Source: a virus
IMG/VR virus record: IMGVR_UViG_3300025671_000008
Coordinates: 1-54,420 of that record
Length of the DNA: 54,420 bases
Reading direction: 5' to 3' (one strand)
Below the pieces are notes generated by a model that did not search any database, was not told the DNA's origin, and worked only from the letters and a program-made list of their open reading frames with translations. The position numbers and the translations under genes are program-made. Shown piece after piece: positions 34,298-51,339 of this stretch (its first letter is position 1; each line of letters begins with the position of its first letter).

Positions 34298-34570
34298 ATG
34301 ATTTCCAAAGAATCCCAGAACAACTTCCAAGAGTTGGTTCGAGTTTGTTCTCACGGCGAGATGTGTGTTGTCGAATGCTCGGATTCCAAAGACCGTAAGT
34401 ACCAGGTGATCTGTGCAGTGGTGGATCTTCCTGAGTTTGACGAAGCCGTGTACGTCCCCTTTGGTTTCATGTTGACACCCAACATGTACAACTTGCTGGA
34501 CCGCATCAAACCACCCGAGTCCCTCAAGGGTGAATGGGCTTGGCCCGAAAGCACCTTCTATTCGTCATGA
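34298..34570 (+). CDS. Small acidic/aromatic protein
   Basis: A 90-residue protein starting MISKESQNNFQELVRVCSHG. A longer reading from 34190 is open but lacks support. Contains VDLPEFDEAVYVPFGFMLTP. Ends at an ATGA overlap with the uracil glycosylase gene. Function unknown. Confidence 0.5.
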   Translation: MISKESQNNFQELVRVCSHGEMCVVECSDSKDRKYQVICAVVDLPEFDEAVYVPFGFMLTPNMYNLLDRIKPPESLKGEWAWPESTFYSS

Positions 34571-35241
34571 ACCTGCCCCAATTTCCTTCGCATTCTTCAT
34601 GCACGTCTTGTGAGCTGCATCAAGAAGCCAATCATCCGGGGGTGCCGACTGCTCATTACGGGCAGTCGGTATTTCCTTCTCCAGACACACCGTTTCTCAT
34701 CGTCATCGGCATGAACCCTGGGTACCACGAAGACAGAACCAATGAATGCTTTGTCGGTCCCGCAGGAAAGATGCTGAAGAACGTGTACATGGAATCCCTT
34801 GGGATCCTCGACACGCATGTGGTGTACTTCACCAACGCAGTGCGATGCACCACGCCAGGCGACACCGGCCTCAAGAACAGTCACATCAAGAAGTGCTGGC
34901 CGCATACCCAGTCAGACATCAGAAACATCTCCGACTGGCACAATGTGGGGGGGAGCATCCTTTGCCTGGGAACACACGCAGCACAGGCTGCAACCAAACA
35001 CTTGATGGGTAAAGCTTTCTCCTTATCGAGAGCACTTGATAAGCAAGGCTTTCCTCTTCCGCCAATTTCCGACAACAAGTCACTTCAGTTTTTTGTGACA
35101 TATCACCCTGCGGCTGTGCTTCGAACGCAACGATTGAAGTATGCTGTCTCTGAACACCTTGACCTTATTGGACAGCATCTTCAGGGAGCCGTCGCATCGC
35201 CATCGCTTCCAATGATCATCCCACCAAGGAGTCCAAGGTGA
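34567..35241 (+). CDS. Uracil-DNA glycosylase (family 4-like)
   Basis: A 224-residue protein that removes uracil from DNA. The N-terminal SCTSCELHQEA has the first two Cys of a 4Fe-4S cluster; AVRCTTPGD and KKCWPHT give the others. The catalytic region is IGMNPGYHEDRTNECFVGPA, and the late HPAAVLR is the typical minor-groove loop. It sits directly before the DNA polymerase gene with ATGA coupling upstream and a GTGA overlap downstream. It would protect the genome from deamination or act in replication. The reversed C7AC word is at 34945. Confidence 0.85.
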   Translation: MNLPQFPSHSSCTSCELHQEANHPGVPTAHYGQSVFPSPDTPFLIVIGMNPGYHEDRTNECFVGPAGKMLKNVYMESLGILDTHVVYFTNAVRCTTPGDTGLKNSHIKKCWPHTQSDIRNISDWHNVGGSILCLGTHAAQAATKHLMGKAFSLSRALDKQGFPLPPISDNKSLQFFVTYHPAAVLRTQRLKYAVSEHLDLIGQHLQGAVASPSLPMIIPPRSPR

Positions 35242-35494: not shown

Positions 35495-37864
35495 GTGGAT
35501 GCTCCCATCATCTCGCTTGACATTGAAACCTACGGTGCCGCAAAGCATCGGCGAGATGGCCGGAAACTCCCTTCGCAGAAGTACTTTCATCCTCGCAAGT
35601 CCGAGTATTGGCAAGCAGTAGAAAAGAAAGATTTGATCCTGACCTGTGCCATCACTGTTGCCGAGTCAGACCCACGAGAGAACAAGACCTGGGACCGAGC
35701 ATCTATCCAAGCACTCAAGCCTGGTGAGACTTTCGTTCTCGAGATGGACAAGAGCATGCACCGAGAATGCCTGGCTCTTTGGCTGAAGCATGCTGACACG
35801 ATCATCGGATCGAACATCCAGTTCGACTTGCTCTTCCTCAGGGCCTACGACAACGCTTTCAAGTTCCTTCTGGACGGCAGGCACACGTACATCGATACGA
35901 CTGTGGTTGCTTACCTTTGGAATGAGTTGTCCTCTTCTCGCAGCTTGAAGAAACTTGGTCCTCTCCTGGGCCAGTTCACTTACGACGAGTCCCTTGCAGA
36001 AGGGAATCGATTTGCCAGCGTGTCAGATGACAAGCTCTCCAAGTACAACGCAGAAGACACACACAACACGCTGCTCGTGCTGGCCGAACTTGCACGTCGT
36101 ATGCCCACCAACACTGACAAGTTGTCAGAGTTCTGCATCAATCATTACAGCGGTGCGATTCACTCTGTCTTGTGCATGACCGAAGAGGGAATTCCTTTTT
36201 CCTCAATCGAACTCGAACAACTGCACGATGAACTAGAAGAAAAACTTGAAGTTGCTCGAGCGAAAGCAGAAGATTGCGGACTCATTCTTTCAGGCAAAGG
36301 TTCTGCCCAATCCAAGAATGAGTTCTTCAATGACGCAGTCACGCTGATCGAACGAGCTGGTCAGGAGAACATCCTCGATCTCCTGGACAAGACGCCTAAG
36401 ACACAGAAGATCTCACACTCTAAGAAAAACAGAGTGATTCTCAGCCAGTACCTCCCGGATTCACCGACGGGGAAAAGCCTTGTAAAGGACGGGCTTCACT
36501 GGTTTAGTCAGTTTCAAGACGCACAGAAACTGCTTTCTACATACGTGTTTCCGCTACTTCTTCACAAGCGGAATGATTCAACAAATCTCAAGTCGAGCAT
36601 AATTCCATGGCCAACACTGGATTCATCCCGAACACTGTTTGCTTCTGTCGACGACCAGAAGGAAGTCATTTCATTGAACAAGACGGAGACTCCATCAAGA
36701 TTGATGCCGGAGTCTTCTACGCTGTTCTCAAAGACATCGTCCCCAAAGACCTCGATCTCGATACCCTTCGTGCAATCCACGCCACTACAATCAAAGAAGT
36801 GCTGTATCGAGCAGGCGCTCAAGAACAATCAAAGCAGTACACCACTGAAGCTTCGGAAGAGATTCTCGATAAAGAGATCCCCCGCTGTTGCTGATGCTGC
36901 TGCCTACCCTTCATGGTTCATCACCCCAAGTCGGGTAAAGAATGATGAAGGTTCCGAGGGGGGGACTATTCAAGGTCGGATCACTTGTAAAGATCCATCT
37001 GCTCAGACCTTTCCCCCCCACATCAAAGAGTGCATGGCCTCCCGATTCGAGGGGGGTTCCATCGTAGGCATCGACTTGAGCCAGATTGAACTTAGGGTTT
37101 CAGCCCTGGTATCGGGCGAGCCCTCGATTCGCAACGCTTACATCAACGGAGAAGATCTGCACGCAACCCGTGCTCGATCACTGTGGCCTGACTACGACCA
37201 GGTACCCGAAGAGAAGAAGCGTCGAAGGCAGGTCGGGAAGATGATGAACTTTGCTGATCTCTTCCTGTCCTCAGCCAACACCATGCGAGAACAGGTGTAT
37301 GCCCAGAGCAATGGAGATATCGATCTGCCCATCGACGTGTTTAAGGAAGTAGTAAACACTCGGAATAAGATTCGACCGGTGCTTACAGCGTGGCAGAAAG
37401 AAATGATCTGGACCGCTAAAGCCCGACACCGAATTGAACTCCCGTTGACCGGTCAGTCTCGTTACTTCTCCGATATTGCCAAGGAGAGATCCGAGATTGT
37501 GAACTTCCCAATCCAAACGACTGCATCAAATCTGATGATGCAGATCCAGTTTCACTTACAGACAGAGCTAAACCGTCAGTTTCCGACGTACATTTCTGAA
37601 CGCCCCCGCTTGTTTCTTCAAGTATTCGATGCGGTGTACATTGACACACCACCCAAAATGGGGGGTATGATGAGGGACATCTTCAAGATCGCAATTGAAA
37701 AAGTGTGCAGCCCTTCCGGTTATTGGGGGCTCCTGACGAAGCACTACGATTCACCTCTAATTCCTCTTGAATTTGATGTTGAGGTTCTTGCGACAAGATC
37801 CCCCTCGGAGCCCCCCCATGAGCAATCAATACAAGCCAGATCCTGCCACGAAGGAGCGGCATAA
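35495..37864 (+). CDS. Family A DNA polymerase with 3'-5' exonuclease
   Basis: A 789-residue replicative polymerase. The exonuclease domain shows LDIETYG (8-14), SNIQFDLLFL (about 111-120) and YNAEDTHNTLL (about 185-195). The polymerase domain has motif A GIDLSQIELRVSAL (about 525-540), an O-helix RRRRQVGKMMNFADLF with Phe at the position equivalent to Klenow 762, and a motif C reading LQVFDAVYID where HDE is usual. Between residues about 355 and 470 lies an abnormal Ser/Thr/Pro/Lys-rich stretch that looks out of frame. It contains a second open frame (see 36607-36894). Confidence 0.92.
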   Translation: MDAPIISLDIETYGAAKHRRDGRKLPSQKYFHPRKSEYWQAVEKKDLILTCAITVAESDPRENKTWDRASIQALKPGETFVLEMDKSMHRECLALWLKHADTIIGSNIQFDLLFLRAYDNAFKFLLDGRHTYIDTTVVAYLWNELSSSRSLKKLGPLLGQFTYDESLAEGNRFASVSDDKLSKYNAEDTHNTLLVLAELARRMPTNTDKLSEFCINHYSGAIHSVLCMTEEGIPFSSIELEQLHDELEEKLEVARAKAEDCGLILSGKGSAQSKNEFFNDAVTLIERAGQENILDLLDKTPKTQKISHSKKNRVILSQYLPDSPTGKSLVKDGLHWFSQFQDAQKLLSTYVFPLLLHKRNDSTNLKSSIIPWPTLDSSRTLFASVDDQKEVISLNKTETPSRLMPESSTLFSKTSSPKTSISIPFVQSTPLQSKKCCIEQALKNNQSSTPLKLRKRFSIKRSPAVADAAAYPSWFITPSRVKNDEGSEGGTIQGRITCKDPSAQTFPPHIKECMASRFEGGSIVGIDLSQIELRVSALVSGEPSIRNAYINGEDLHATRARSLWPDYDQVPEEKKRRRQVGKMMNFADLFLSSANTMREQVYAQSNGDIDLPIDVFKEVVNTRNKIRPVLTAWQKEMIWTAKARHRIELPLTGQSRYFSDIAKERSEIVNFPIQTTASNLMMQIQFHLQTELNRQFPTYISERPRLFLQVFDAVYIDTPPKMGGMMRDIFKIAIEKVCSPSGYWGLLTKHYDSPLIPLEFDVEVLATRSPSEPPHEQSIQARSCHEGAA
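36607..36894 (+). CDS. Protein-like overlapping ORF inside the DNA polymerase gene
   Basis: A 95-residue ORF in the -1 frame relative to the polymerase (MANTGFIPNTVCFCRRPEGS, then FIEQDGDSIKIDAGVFYAVL, then DLDLDTLRAIHATTIKEVLY). Its composition is balanced and helix-compatible, while the polymerase frame over the same bases is Ser/Thr/Lys-rich and low in hydrophobics. In related polymerases the distance between the preceding motif (LLSTYV) and YPSWFI is much shorter, so these about 340 bp look inserted. There is no strong ribosome-binding site. It could be an overprinted gene or the remnant of an intervening sequence. Confidence 0.45.
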   Translation: MANTGFIPNTVCFCRRPEGSHFIEQDGDSIKIDAGVFYAVLKDIVPKDLDLDTLRAIHATTIKEVLYRAGAQEQSKQYTTEASEEILDKEIPRCC

Positions 37865-38168
37865 GAAAATTGTTTCTCTTCTTAAGCAAGGCTACTCTGT
37901 TCAAGAAGTCTGCAAGCAGGTAAAGATCACACCCAAGCGGGTGTATGCAGTTGCTGAGCGAGCCTCTGTCTCAACTAATCCAATGGTTCATCCTCAATCA
38001 GATGATGAGAACTCTATCTGCCGATTGAACCATGCTGGTTGGAGTCTCAAGAAGATCTCTAAATACATGGGCCGAGAGACTCAGGCCATCACACGGGTGC
38101 TGAATCGGATCAAGGAAGATCCGGTGATGAACAAGACCAAGGATAGGTACGGAGAGTTTGAAGCGTAG
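37818..38168 (+). CDS. HTH DNA-binding protein
   Basis: A 116-residue basic protein starting MSNQYKPDPATKERHKKIVS. Two helix-turn-helix candidates: VSLLKQGYSVQEVCKQVKIT and NHAGWSLKKISKYMGRETQA. A GGAG precedes a run of seven C and the ATG. Its end overlaps the TTG start of the next gene. Probably a regulator. Confidence 0.65.
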   Translation: MSNQYKPDPATKERHKKIVSLLKQGYSVQEVCKQVKITPKRVYAVAERASVSTNPMVHPQSDDENSICRLNHAGWSLKKISKYMGRETQAITRVLNRIKEDPVMNKTKDRYGEFEA

Positions 38169-47350: not shown

Positions 47351-50300
47351 TTAAAACCCTTCTGTCGCACTGTAGTTGTCGAAGACAGATGGGGTTGCTC
47401 TAGACTTCTCAGCGGTAGATCGATCGAGTTCGCCAGGCATAGTTCCACCGGCACGCTCCAATATCGGTCGGTACTGCTGCCTTATCTGAGGGTTGAGTCG
47501 TTCATACATTCGCTCGCGAAGTGGGACTTCTCGAACTTGGATAGCTCGGTCGATCTGCTGTTGAGTTACGGTCAGAGGCATTCCAAACTTTCGTTCGAAG
47601 TTCTGAGCCACAGCATTCGCCCGCTGAGTGTTGTTGTTCAAGAGAGCATTGATGTAATCAGCTTTGATTCCATTGAACTGCTCACGGTTGCTGACCATGA
47701 ACTTGTGCAGTTCCTGGTTCTGCTTGTTCATGTACGGCCCAAGACCCACAGAAGACAGGATTCGTTTGACGGCAGGTTCGTACTGAATGACCGTTCCGTC
47801 TGCTCGATAGGTGGGGACATCACCGTTCTCATTCATCTGATTAAAATCAGTGAACTCTCGTTGCAGTCCTCCAATGATCCCCTTCTGGTCCCCCATCTGA
47901 GGAGCCAGATTCAAGGCTCGCTGGAGGGCAATGCCACCAGGCAGCACCCGAGGCACCACAGCACCAATCAAGGACTGATCCTCCGCCAGCAGGGCCTGAG
48001 TCCCATCCATGGCCAAATCGATGATGGGGGGGATAGGCATCTTGTAGCCCAAGCTCGCCCGGTCAGAGGTGAACATCGGGCCAACAATCGTTGACTCCCA
48101 CATGGTCTGGGCTCCGAGGCCCTTGCTGAAGTCCATCCCGAGAGCATTCTTCCCGATCTCGTAGATGGCAGCACTGAACCCCAGAGTCCGAGCCATGTCG
48201 TGAAACATGGAGGAGTATTTACCCTGCGTCTCAAAGCCCGTCAGGCCCCATGTACGGCGTCCCTGATTGATCATGGGCGCCGTGTCCGTCCAGGACGTGA
48301 GCGTCCTCAGAGGGAACGTGAGGAACTGTCGGGCCCAAGGGAGAGACAAGAACCCCTGCTGGAACATGGCAGGGCTATTGACAATGTCAGAGCCAAACTG
48401 GGTGTTCTGAACCATGGACTTGATCGAGTCCGTGGAGCGGAAGATATCGTCCTTCTTGCCCTGCATGGCGTAATCAGTCAAACCGTTCTTGACGGTCTTC
48501 CTCATCCCCCCCACTTTCCCTGCTGCCTGAGTGGCCGCAAAGGCTGCCTCTCCAGTAGCCACCCGGTTGAAGATCTCGGTGTGCTGGAACAGCTTGAGCG
48601 GCAATTCCGTCAGGGCATATTTCAGAGGTCTGGGGTTCTTGTCGGCGATTGTCGAAAAGGCCACCTGGTCAAGCAGCTCGTAGGAGCTGGCCCGGATGTT
48701 GAGCAGATCCTCTCCGTCCACATTGGACAGGCGGAAATGCTTGCGGCGAAGCTCGTCGATGTCGTCGGCGTTGCCCCGGATGCCCAGCTTGATCCTGTCG
48801 TCGATGTAACTGAAGTACTGCTTGAATGCCTGGCCGTACCCCTTGGCCATGTTGCCGGCACCCATCCAGGTCTGGGCAAAGAGCAATGGCTGAAACAAAT
48901 TCAAGACTGCCGAAGCAGGGTTGAATCCCAGGTGAGAGGAGTAAAGAGCGGTAGCAGCACCACGACCAAACTCACTTCCATCAAACTCGGTCAAGTCTCT
49001 CTTGGCAAACGACTTCAAAGAGCCGAGGAACTGACTGCTCTGTGAGTTCTCCCCCCCCACTTTAGCCATGAACTTGCTGTTGGCCAGGCCGCCTGCAATG
49101 TGCTGGGCACCCAGCATCGCGTGGTAGCCCATGAGATCATTGATCTTCATCTCACCACGGATACGAGGAATCAGTACCCCTTGAATGTAACTGCTGGTTG
49201 CCTTGTCCCCAGCAAGATCCAAGTCTCGTACCAATGTCTGGTACACGTCGTACCTCGAGTTGCCCCCCAACATCTTTCGAGCAGCCACTTCTCGCCGAGC
49301 ATCTCGAGCTTTCTGTACAGGGAAGTCCCGAAGGGCCAGACGCACATCACCGGGGAGAGCGTCGGCATAGAACGCCACATCATTTCGGGTCTGCTTGAGG
49401 TACTTGTTAATGGAGTAATCAAAGTCGAGGTTGGATACCTGGACAATGCCATCTTCAGGACTGCGTCGGAATGCTTCTTGAAGCAGCTTTCGATTCTGCC
49501 CCACGAAGTTCTCGAGATTGGAGTTCGCTACACCTGCCTTGGCATAAAGCTCACCAATGATCTCGAGATCTTCCGGGTCATAGATGCCGTCCGAGACACT
49601 TCGATTACGGATCCGGCCCGAAGCAAAGTTGACCTTGCGACGGGAGTCTTGGACTCGATCTACCCTGACCTTGTCGCCATTCTCAAGGACATTCGACCAG
49701 ACATTGCGAGGCATGTAGTTGTCAAGGTCATCCAGAGATCGCTGATCCCGAACCAATTGCTTGAACTCAGAAATATCCAGAGATCCGTTACGCAATTTCT
49801 TGACGACCTCTTCAGCAATCTCGTTGTTCATGTGGCCGAAGTATTCAGATGCCAGGAATGGAACATCCTCAGCCCTTGCCACCTGCACACTCTTCTTGAG
49901 ACTGCCGTACAACCTCAGGATCTTGTCGTCATCAAACCCCCCTGACCTGTTCAAGAACAAGTCACCGTAACGCTTCTTCATGACTGCTCGAGTCATGCCC
50001 ATGTACGGAGCAAACCCCTCCTGCTCAAGCCACTTGGACATAAGATCGTCAGGGTCTAGGTTAGGTCGGACTCGTTGCTCAATCTCGTTCGTGATTCGAT
50101 CTGCTCGAGACACTCGGACAGGCACATCATCGCCCACGATAGGACGGACCTGATTCAAGAACTCTGCTTCTGGAATCTTGCCCTCGTCCAAATCACGCAG
50201 AGCAGCATTCACCGCACCTGCTTGCTCTCGGTTGACAGGCAACTTCTTCCCTGACTCCGTGACCACGTTGTGGGCCATGCCCATGTTGGCCTGCTTGCGG

Positions 50301-50974
50301 ACCACCTGCTTGTTCATCCCGTCCAACACGGCGTGCATGTAGACCTGGGATCTCTTGAGATAGGTAGGCAACGAAATGTACTCGCCGTTGATGTTGGCAA
50401 ATACTTCCGGTGCCCGCTCAGGACGAAGACTTTGGAGAGGCGTCTTCAACCTAAATCGTTCAGAGATACGTGATTGAAGAGAGGCCAGAGTAGAGCGGAT
50501 AGGGATCTGCTCTTCTTCTACCAGGTCACTGATCCTCTTGGTGGTGGAGTTCAACACCGTAGGCAGTGCAGTACCCTGCCCCATTTGATGGGCATTAAGC
50601 AGGCCAAGGCTCTTGAGAACAGACTTGTTCCCAATGACATACTCACCGTATTTCGAGCCCGTGAAGATACGACCTGTAGCCGACAAAGCCTTACCCGCTG
50701 CTGGCGACGTGACAAACGTCAGCCAGACAAACGGGTTTGACGCAAGGTCGATGACCGTGTTTGCCAATGCAGAACCACCGTACTCCTGCTTCAATCGTTC
50801 GACAAAGGAATCCCTCTCCCTTGGGCTCAAAGCAGAGGGATCAAGCATTGTCTGCTTGAACGATTTCCAGGTCAGTTCATCATCGAGGAACTGAGTGAAA
50901 GCGACAGTGGGCCTGTCATAGATGGCAACAGGATCAAAGCCGTCTAGGCCGTCTTCCTGCGGATCGTAATCCAT
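47351..50974 (-). CDS. Very large internal virion / ejection-type protein, 1207 residues
   Basis: The start at 50974 gives TGATG coupling. Mostly helical, with amphipathic and hydrophobic stretches (ASNPFVWLTFVTSPAAGKAL, LGFNPASAVLNLFQPLLFAQ) that could enter membranes. Size and build match the largest internal core or pilot proteins of podoviruses, which form a conduit for DNA. It is the last gene of the late arm. C7AC words at 48506 and 49051 (C8). Function by resemblance of build, not by a recognised domain. Confidence 0.6.
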   Translation of the reverse strand: MDYDPQEDGLDGFDPVAIYDRPTVAFTQFLDDELTWKSFKQTMLDPSALSPRERDSFVERLKQEYGGSALANTVIDLASNPFVWLTFVTSPAAGKALSATGRIFTGSKYGEYVIGNKSVLKSLGLLNAHQMGQGTALPTVLNSTTKRISDLVEEEQIPIRSTLASLQSRISERFRLKTPLQSLRPERAPEVFANINGEYISLPTYLKRSQVYMHAVLDGMNKQVVRKQANMGMAHNVVTESGKKLPVNREQAGAVNAALRDLDEGKIPEAEFLNQVRPIVGDDVPVRVSRADRITNEIEQRVRPNLDPDDLMSKWLEQEGFAPYMGMTRAVMKKRYGDLFLNRSGGFDDDKILRLYGSLKKSVQVARAEDVPFLASEYFGHMNNEIAEEVVKKLRNGSLDISEFKQLVRDQRSLDDLDNYMPRNVWSNVLENGDKVRVDRVQDSRRKVNFASGRIRNRSVSDGIYDPEDLEIIGELYAKAGVANSNLENFVGQNRKLLQEAFRRSPEDGIVQVSNLDFDYSINKYLKQTRNDVAFYADALPGDVRLALRDFPVQKARDARREVAARKMLGGNSRYDVYQTLVRDLDLAGDKATSSYIQGVLIPRIRGEMKINDLMGYHAMLGAQHIAGGLANSKFMAKVGGENSQSSQFLGSLKSFAKRDLTEFDGSEFGRGAATALYSSHLGFNPASAVLNLFQPLLFAQTWMGAGNMAKGYGQAFKQYFSYIDDRIKLGIRGNADDIDELRRKHFRLSNVDGEDLLNIRASSYELLDQVAFSTIADKNPRPLKYALTELPLKLFQHTEIFNRVATGEAAFAATQAAGKVGGMRKTVKNGLTDYAMQGKKDDIFRSTDSIKSMVQNTQFGSDIVNSPAMFQQGFLSLPWARQFLTFPLRTLTSWTDTAPMINQGRRTWGLTGFETQGKYSSMFHDMARTLGFSAAIYEIGKNALGMDFSKGLGAQTMWESTIVGPMFTSDRASLGYKMPIPPIIDLAMDGTQALLAEDQSLIGAVVPRVLPGGIALQRALNLAPQMGDQKGIIGGLQREFTDFNQMNENGDVPTYRADGTVIQYEPAVKRILSSVGLGPYMNKQNQELHKFMVSNREQFNGIKADYINALLNNNTQRANAVAQNFERKFGMPLTVTQQQIDRAIQVREVPLRERMYERLNPQIRQQYRPILERAGGTMPGELDRSTAEKSRATPSVFDNYSATEGF

Positions 50975-51339
50975 CAACCAATCCGGGTGCGGATCCGAAG
51001 CTGAATGACCACGCCATCAACCGCAACGGTATTGAAATCAGCCGTGACACTGTCTCCAGCAGCAATGACGTTGTTGGTCTTGTCAATGGTTGCAGCAGCG
51101 AAGCTCGCACCAAGAGTCAGTGCCGTGTTCACCGCAGCAGTTCCCGAAGCAGTCGTCTTCAGGGTCAGGCTTGGAGTGCCTGCATCAGCCTTGGCGTGAA
51201 CCGCTTCAATGACGGTGTCTCGTTCCGCATAGAAGATGGGCTTGTCATCCAGCGGGTTGTCAATATTGTTCAGCTGAATAACCACGATCTGATGGAAGTC
51301 CGGAAGTTCCGAAGCCTCGATAGGGATTGCGCCTGCCAT
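50974..51339 (-). CDS. Small beta-rich virion protein
   Basis: A 121-residue protein (MAGAIPIEASELPDFHQIVV) with repeated short strands and Ala/Thr loops (TASGTAAVNTALTLGASFAA), typical of head decoration or fibre-cap domains. Between ejection-type proteins. AGGA precedes the ATG by nine bases. Confidence 0.6.
   Translation of the reverse strand: MAGAIPIEASELPDFHQIVVIQLNNIDNPLDDKPIFYAERDTVIEAVHAKADAGTPSLTLKTTASGTAAVNTALTLGASFAAATIDKTNNVIAAGDSVTADFNTVAVDGVVIQLRIRTRIG

Follow-up and report, generated by a model that had tools for sequence, protein, structure and literature searches.

The window analysed here, a phage contig of 54,420 bases, carries a gene for a family A DNA polymerase whose linker between two conserved blocks is expanded and, over much of its length, is written in codons that suit the -1 frame better than the polymerase frame. 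The polymerase frame is homologous to that of relatives on both flanks, the -1 codon signal is in excess, and the -1 product shows neither conservation nor a homologue in the collections searched. The explanation that we favour, and to which we give an even chance of being right, is that out-of-frame coding-like DNA, whether a fragment or the result of a compensated frameshift, is tolerated in a disordered linker and translated only in the polymerase frame. The features concerned, all on the plus strand, are:

35495-37864, plus strand: family A DNA polymerase with an exonuclease-like (3'-5') N-terminal half, 789 aa, GTG start
36607-36894, plus strand: 95-codon ATG ORF in the -1 frame, hypothetical product, stop codon TGA at 36892-36894
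36608-36901, plus strand: linker expansion, polymerase aa 372-469, flanked by the LLSTYV...SSIIP block and by AYPSWF
36608-36667, plus strand: first 20 linker codons, with codon usage normal in the polymerase frame and not in the -1 frame (codon scoring)
36668-36883, plus strand: about 71 codons whose usage suits the -1 frame better than the polymerase frame, by 28.9 bits
36609-36886, plus strand: stretch over which blastn detects no similarity to the DNA of L051/L129, the closest relative (matching pieces stop at 36608 and restart at 36887)
36860-36901, plus strand: conserved linker 3' end in the polymerase frame, RFxxxR.....D then AYPSWF, with which the -1 ORF overlaps at its 3' end

The polymerase belongs to family A and is intact. 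Its frame is open throughout as a single frame, linker included, and it matches DNA_pol_A of Pfam at 6.9e-22 and a PHROG DNA polymerase at 1.4e-46, as well as exonuclease-subunit families. The catalytic blocks of family A polymerases are present and conserved in alignments with relatives, and an AlphaFold2 model of the protein resembles Bst/Klenow Pol I in a fold search, with E-values down to 2.5e-19. A second contig (L002), which may derive from a related sample, carries an identical 7,056-bp stretch, and this copy speaks against an error of assembly. At its 3' end (37767-37864) the polymerase gene overlaps the next ORF (37767-38168, +1 frame), and the coding signal backs a real overlap. Two other ORFs of the window have no PHROG match, one of 1208 aa on the minus strand at 47351-50977 and one at 34567-35241, whose GMNPG motif we take to resemble that of uracil-DNA glycosylases.

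Relatives of the polymerase were gathered by alignment-based scans of IMG/VR and of genome contigs, and linker length was measured from SSIIP to AYP. The linker has 98 aa in the window versus 62 aa in the closest relative (L015/L051, 61-63% identical) and about 55-60 aa in the sister clade, and most other members of the family have about 6-14 aa; the range is about 6-66 aa among the relatives, and about 6 to 98 aa for the family with the window included. A first-pass annotation, made from the sequence, had proposed that about 340 bp were extra at this place. From the linker lengths, the correct description is an expansion of a hypervariable linker rather than 340 bp of clean insert. Homology in the polymerase frame extends up to SSIIP and again from RFxxxR to AYPSWF, conservation of RFxxxR...AYP covering 36860-36907, and the window shares its spacing from RFxxxR to AYP/AFP with nearly all long-linker relatives. 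The non-homologous middle is thus confined to about 36608-36855, and the 3' end of the ORF lies on native polymerase sequence, to which the last 15 or so codons before AYPSWF (about 36854-36901) belong. The insertion-like expansion that had been claimed holds up statistically. In neither frame is the linker middle similar to the linker of any relative. In the AlphaFold2 model, aa 375-449 are predicted to be disordered (pLDDT about 27-43) between well-predicted blocks, and a linker disordered in this way could plausibly absorb foreign sequence.

Two observations on the relatives may be added. Four of them (L103, L105, L108 and L110) have a longer N-terminal half, with a match span of about 1,480 nt versus 1,070-1,080, which points to another variable insertion site in the polymerase family. 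Two contigs that carry family polymerases, L129 and L130, bear the labels of Phycisphaerae and Myxococcales MAGs; since L129 is 99.9% identical to the viral contig L051 over 6.8 kb of DNA, these two may be phage contigs that were binned into MAGs.

Codon usage was scored with this phage's own long ORFs as reference, and the comparison of both frames that the first-pass annotation had proposed came out on the side of the -1 frame over 36668-36883. The difference listed above is the strongest alternative-frame signal in the tested genes, the runner-up in any phase reaching 18.3 bits, and the real overlap at the polymerase 3' end, which served as positive control, scores 15.8 bits. The -1 codon score is equal to that of real genes. 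None of 3000 synonymous recodings of the polymerase reaches it, whether by usage or by codon permutation (p < 1/3000, gene level); the second-frame signal exceeds what the polymerase protein forces on the DNA, a property expected of overlapping genes. Over the same segment Ser, Thr, Lys and Pro make up 53% of the residues in the polymerase frame, all 275 real-frame windows of sampled genes being lower (maximum 49%). The -1 peptide has a normal composition, with Asp plus Glu at 21%, above every -1 shadow window. The Ser/Thr/Lys/Pro-rich polymerase frame, the ordinary composition of the other frame and the ORF itself, in which the quoted peptide was found, are thus as they had been described.

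That the ORF is a coding frame along its length holds only in part. The open stretch of the -1 frame runs from 36577 to the TGA, and the codon signal starts near 36668, about 60 nt downstream of the only ATG, with no start codon at this onset; over 36608-36667 the polymerase frame scores better. The length of the ORF is weakly unusual (gene-level p about 0.03-0.05), and it was dropped as evidence because other genes hold -1 runs of 100-106 codons. A minus-strand frame over 36562-36828 gives a weaker signal of 18.1 bits and has no homologue, and the opposite strand was rejected as a coding frame for these two reasons.

The site is best pictured as a linker on the polymerase surface, hypervariable and disordered, that joins two conserved blocks and whose middle (roughly 36668-36855) would consist, in this lineage, of DNA with the codon structure of the -1 frame. 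We infer that this DNA arose either from a coding fragment inserted out of frame or from a compensating pair of frameshifts within an older linker, that it is tolerated with the polymerase frame reading its +1 shadow, by chance stop-free and rich in Ser, Thr, Lys and Pro, and that today the polymerase frame alone is translated. The segment would have survived because such a shadow is often stop-free in this codon usage (given the -1 peptide, about a third of the simulated recodings leave the polymerase frame open by chance), and because the linker tolerates change. Consistent with this, the polymerase frame is preferred in seven of eight other long linkers, the eighth (L130) being neutral, and a second, unrelated long linker, that of L113 (see below), has a -1 signal that likewise lacks a start at its onset. 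Against a tolerated relic stands the result that neither a donor sequence nor an ancestral in-frame linker was found among the relatives and collections searched, the DNA of the stretch having no similarity to phages, to the rest of the window or to relatives. Codon choice over 36836-36883 also speaks against a dead relic, as it continues to suit the -1 frame better in a part where the polymerase frame is conserved (p 0.001 by usage, 0.03 by permutation), an effect that comes from three rare codons. Two particular histories were rejected: a compensated frameshift that would have ended on the right at the C5 run at 36880, because RFxxxR at 36860 matches the relatives' spacing in the polymerase frame, and a frameshift of a still recognisable ancestral linker, because neither frame resembles the relatives.

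Possibly, though on the whole we doubt it, the signal is a by-product of composition, in which codons rich in Ser, Thr, Pro and Lys, once shifted by one base, read as NTC, NCC and NAC and look coding-like, the -1 ORF being accidental. The length of the ORF, unremarkable on its own, would fit, as would a parallel found elsewhere in the family. Among 44 distinct linkers the -1 signal stays at or below about 10 bits, save in the two longest, that of the window (30.5) and that of L113 (36.6), a distant family member on a long branch, for which a closer relative was searched for and none was found. The L113 signal lies at the same linker position (L113:4659-4850); the polymerase frame of that linker is S/P/R-rich, and no sequence in common with the linker of the window is visible. 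The -1 segment of L113 has no start codon at its beginning, and its product is unrelated to the window's, as a signal caused by composition predicts. This parallel shows that the out-of-frame pattern belongs to long linkers in this family and not to one particular gene. However, recodings that keep the polymerase amino acids fail to reproduce the signal in L113 just as in the window (p < 1/3000 each), and the Ser/Thr/Lys/Pro content of the window segment is above that of any real-frame window of sampled genes.

A genuine overprinted gene, as the first-pass annotation had suggested, is an unlikely reading. The -1 ORF would be translated from its ATG into a small helical protein, and the polymerase would keep a disordered linker. 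The gene-like codon score and its excess over every synonymous recoding, the persistence of this excess across the conserved polymerase end and the protein-like composition all favour it. An AlphaFold2 model of the -1 product from the single sequence (pLDDT 56) has residues 34-90 helical at about 55-74, which is compatible with a real protein and is not evidence of one; a fold search with this low-confidence model returned meaningless matches. The coding-like -1 frame holds up statistically, but conservation weighs against a gene, and initiation would be weak. Shine-Dalgarno pairing at the ATG at 36607 (-2.2 kcal/mol) is below the strength expected at random (mean -3.3); many real starts in this phage pair at -5 to -11 kcal/mol, some other apparent starts being equally weak. 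The first 20 codons are not coding-like in the -1 frame. Searches for homologues of the product gave only E-values of 3 or more by tblastn against phages and plasmids, only the identical copy in IMG/VR, none in genome contigs or in the contigs of 34 relatives, and no significant match in Pfam, PHROGs or the PDB. Conservation of the second frame, also expected of overlapping genes, is absent in the relatives, and the closest of them has 6 stops in the corresponding -1 frame. The first-pass annotation had named one observation that would count against it, a linker equally long in relatives and conserved there in the polymerase frame, and no such relative was found.

A broader version, in which long linkers are nurseries of new genes and at least two lineages, those of the window and of L113, would encode and express a second protein in the -1 frame, seems to us quite improbable. 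An intervening element such as a self-splicing intron or an intein, or a ribosomal frameshift product, is very improbable: the DNA boundaries are sharp near the ORF ends and the insert preserves the frame, but the stretch has no Rfam match at E up to 1 and an RNA fold no better than shuffles (z 0.22), which led us to reject an intron, no intein family and hence no Intein/Hint domain was detected in the whole polymerase by Pfam at E up to 1 (DNA_pol_A and a sub-threshold match in the exonuclease half being all that is listed), no X XXY YYZ slippery heptamer occurs within 36560-36700, and the linker is of low complexity and partly homologous to relatives' linkers, with RFxxxR inside the stretch conserved in the polymerase frame. 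The alternative of an element interrupting the gene while keeping its frame open, which had been raised at the outset, is accordingly not supported.

Extra sequence between conserved family A blocks has precedents. The T7 polymerase, of family A, carries a thioredoxin-binding insertion. Plant organellar family A DNA polymerases bear lineage-specific insertions (PMC7699545). Insertions of both kinds are functional elements encoded in the polymerase frame, whereas the expansion in the window is predicted to be disordered and has its codon signal out of frame. In Hepatitis B virus, the second frame over the polymerase spacer is an established gene. The likeness lies in the spacer domain of that polymerase, which is variable and tether-like and is overlapped by a second frame, that of preS (PMC9093120). 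In contrast, the -1 frame of the window is putative and found in one phage lineage only, and the polymerase family is unrelated. Overlapping genes that arose by overprinting in viruses have been reviewed (PMC8227390), and our case is similar to them in having a protein-like second frame over a disordered part of another protein; it differs in that the -1 ORF lacks conservation, has a weak initiation signal and has a hypothetical product.

Should the segment prove to be tolerated out-of-frame DNA, it would illustrate clearly how frame-shadow sequence can enlarge the disordered linkers of an essential enzyme, and it would caution against equating a codon signal from a single genome with a gene. 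If instead the -1 frame is expressed, the window would hold an overprinted gene within the replicative polymerase of a phage, and another, independent case would be available for comparison.
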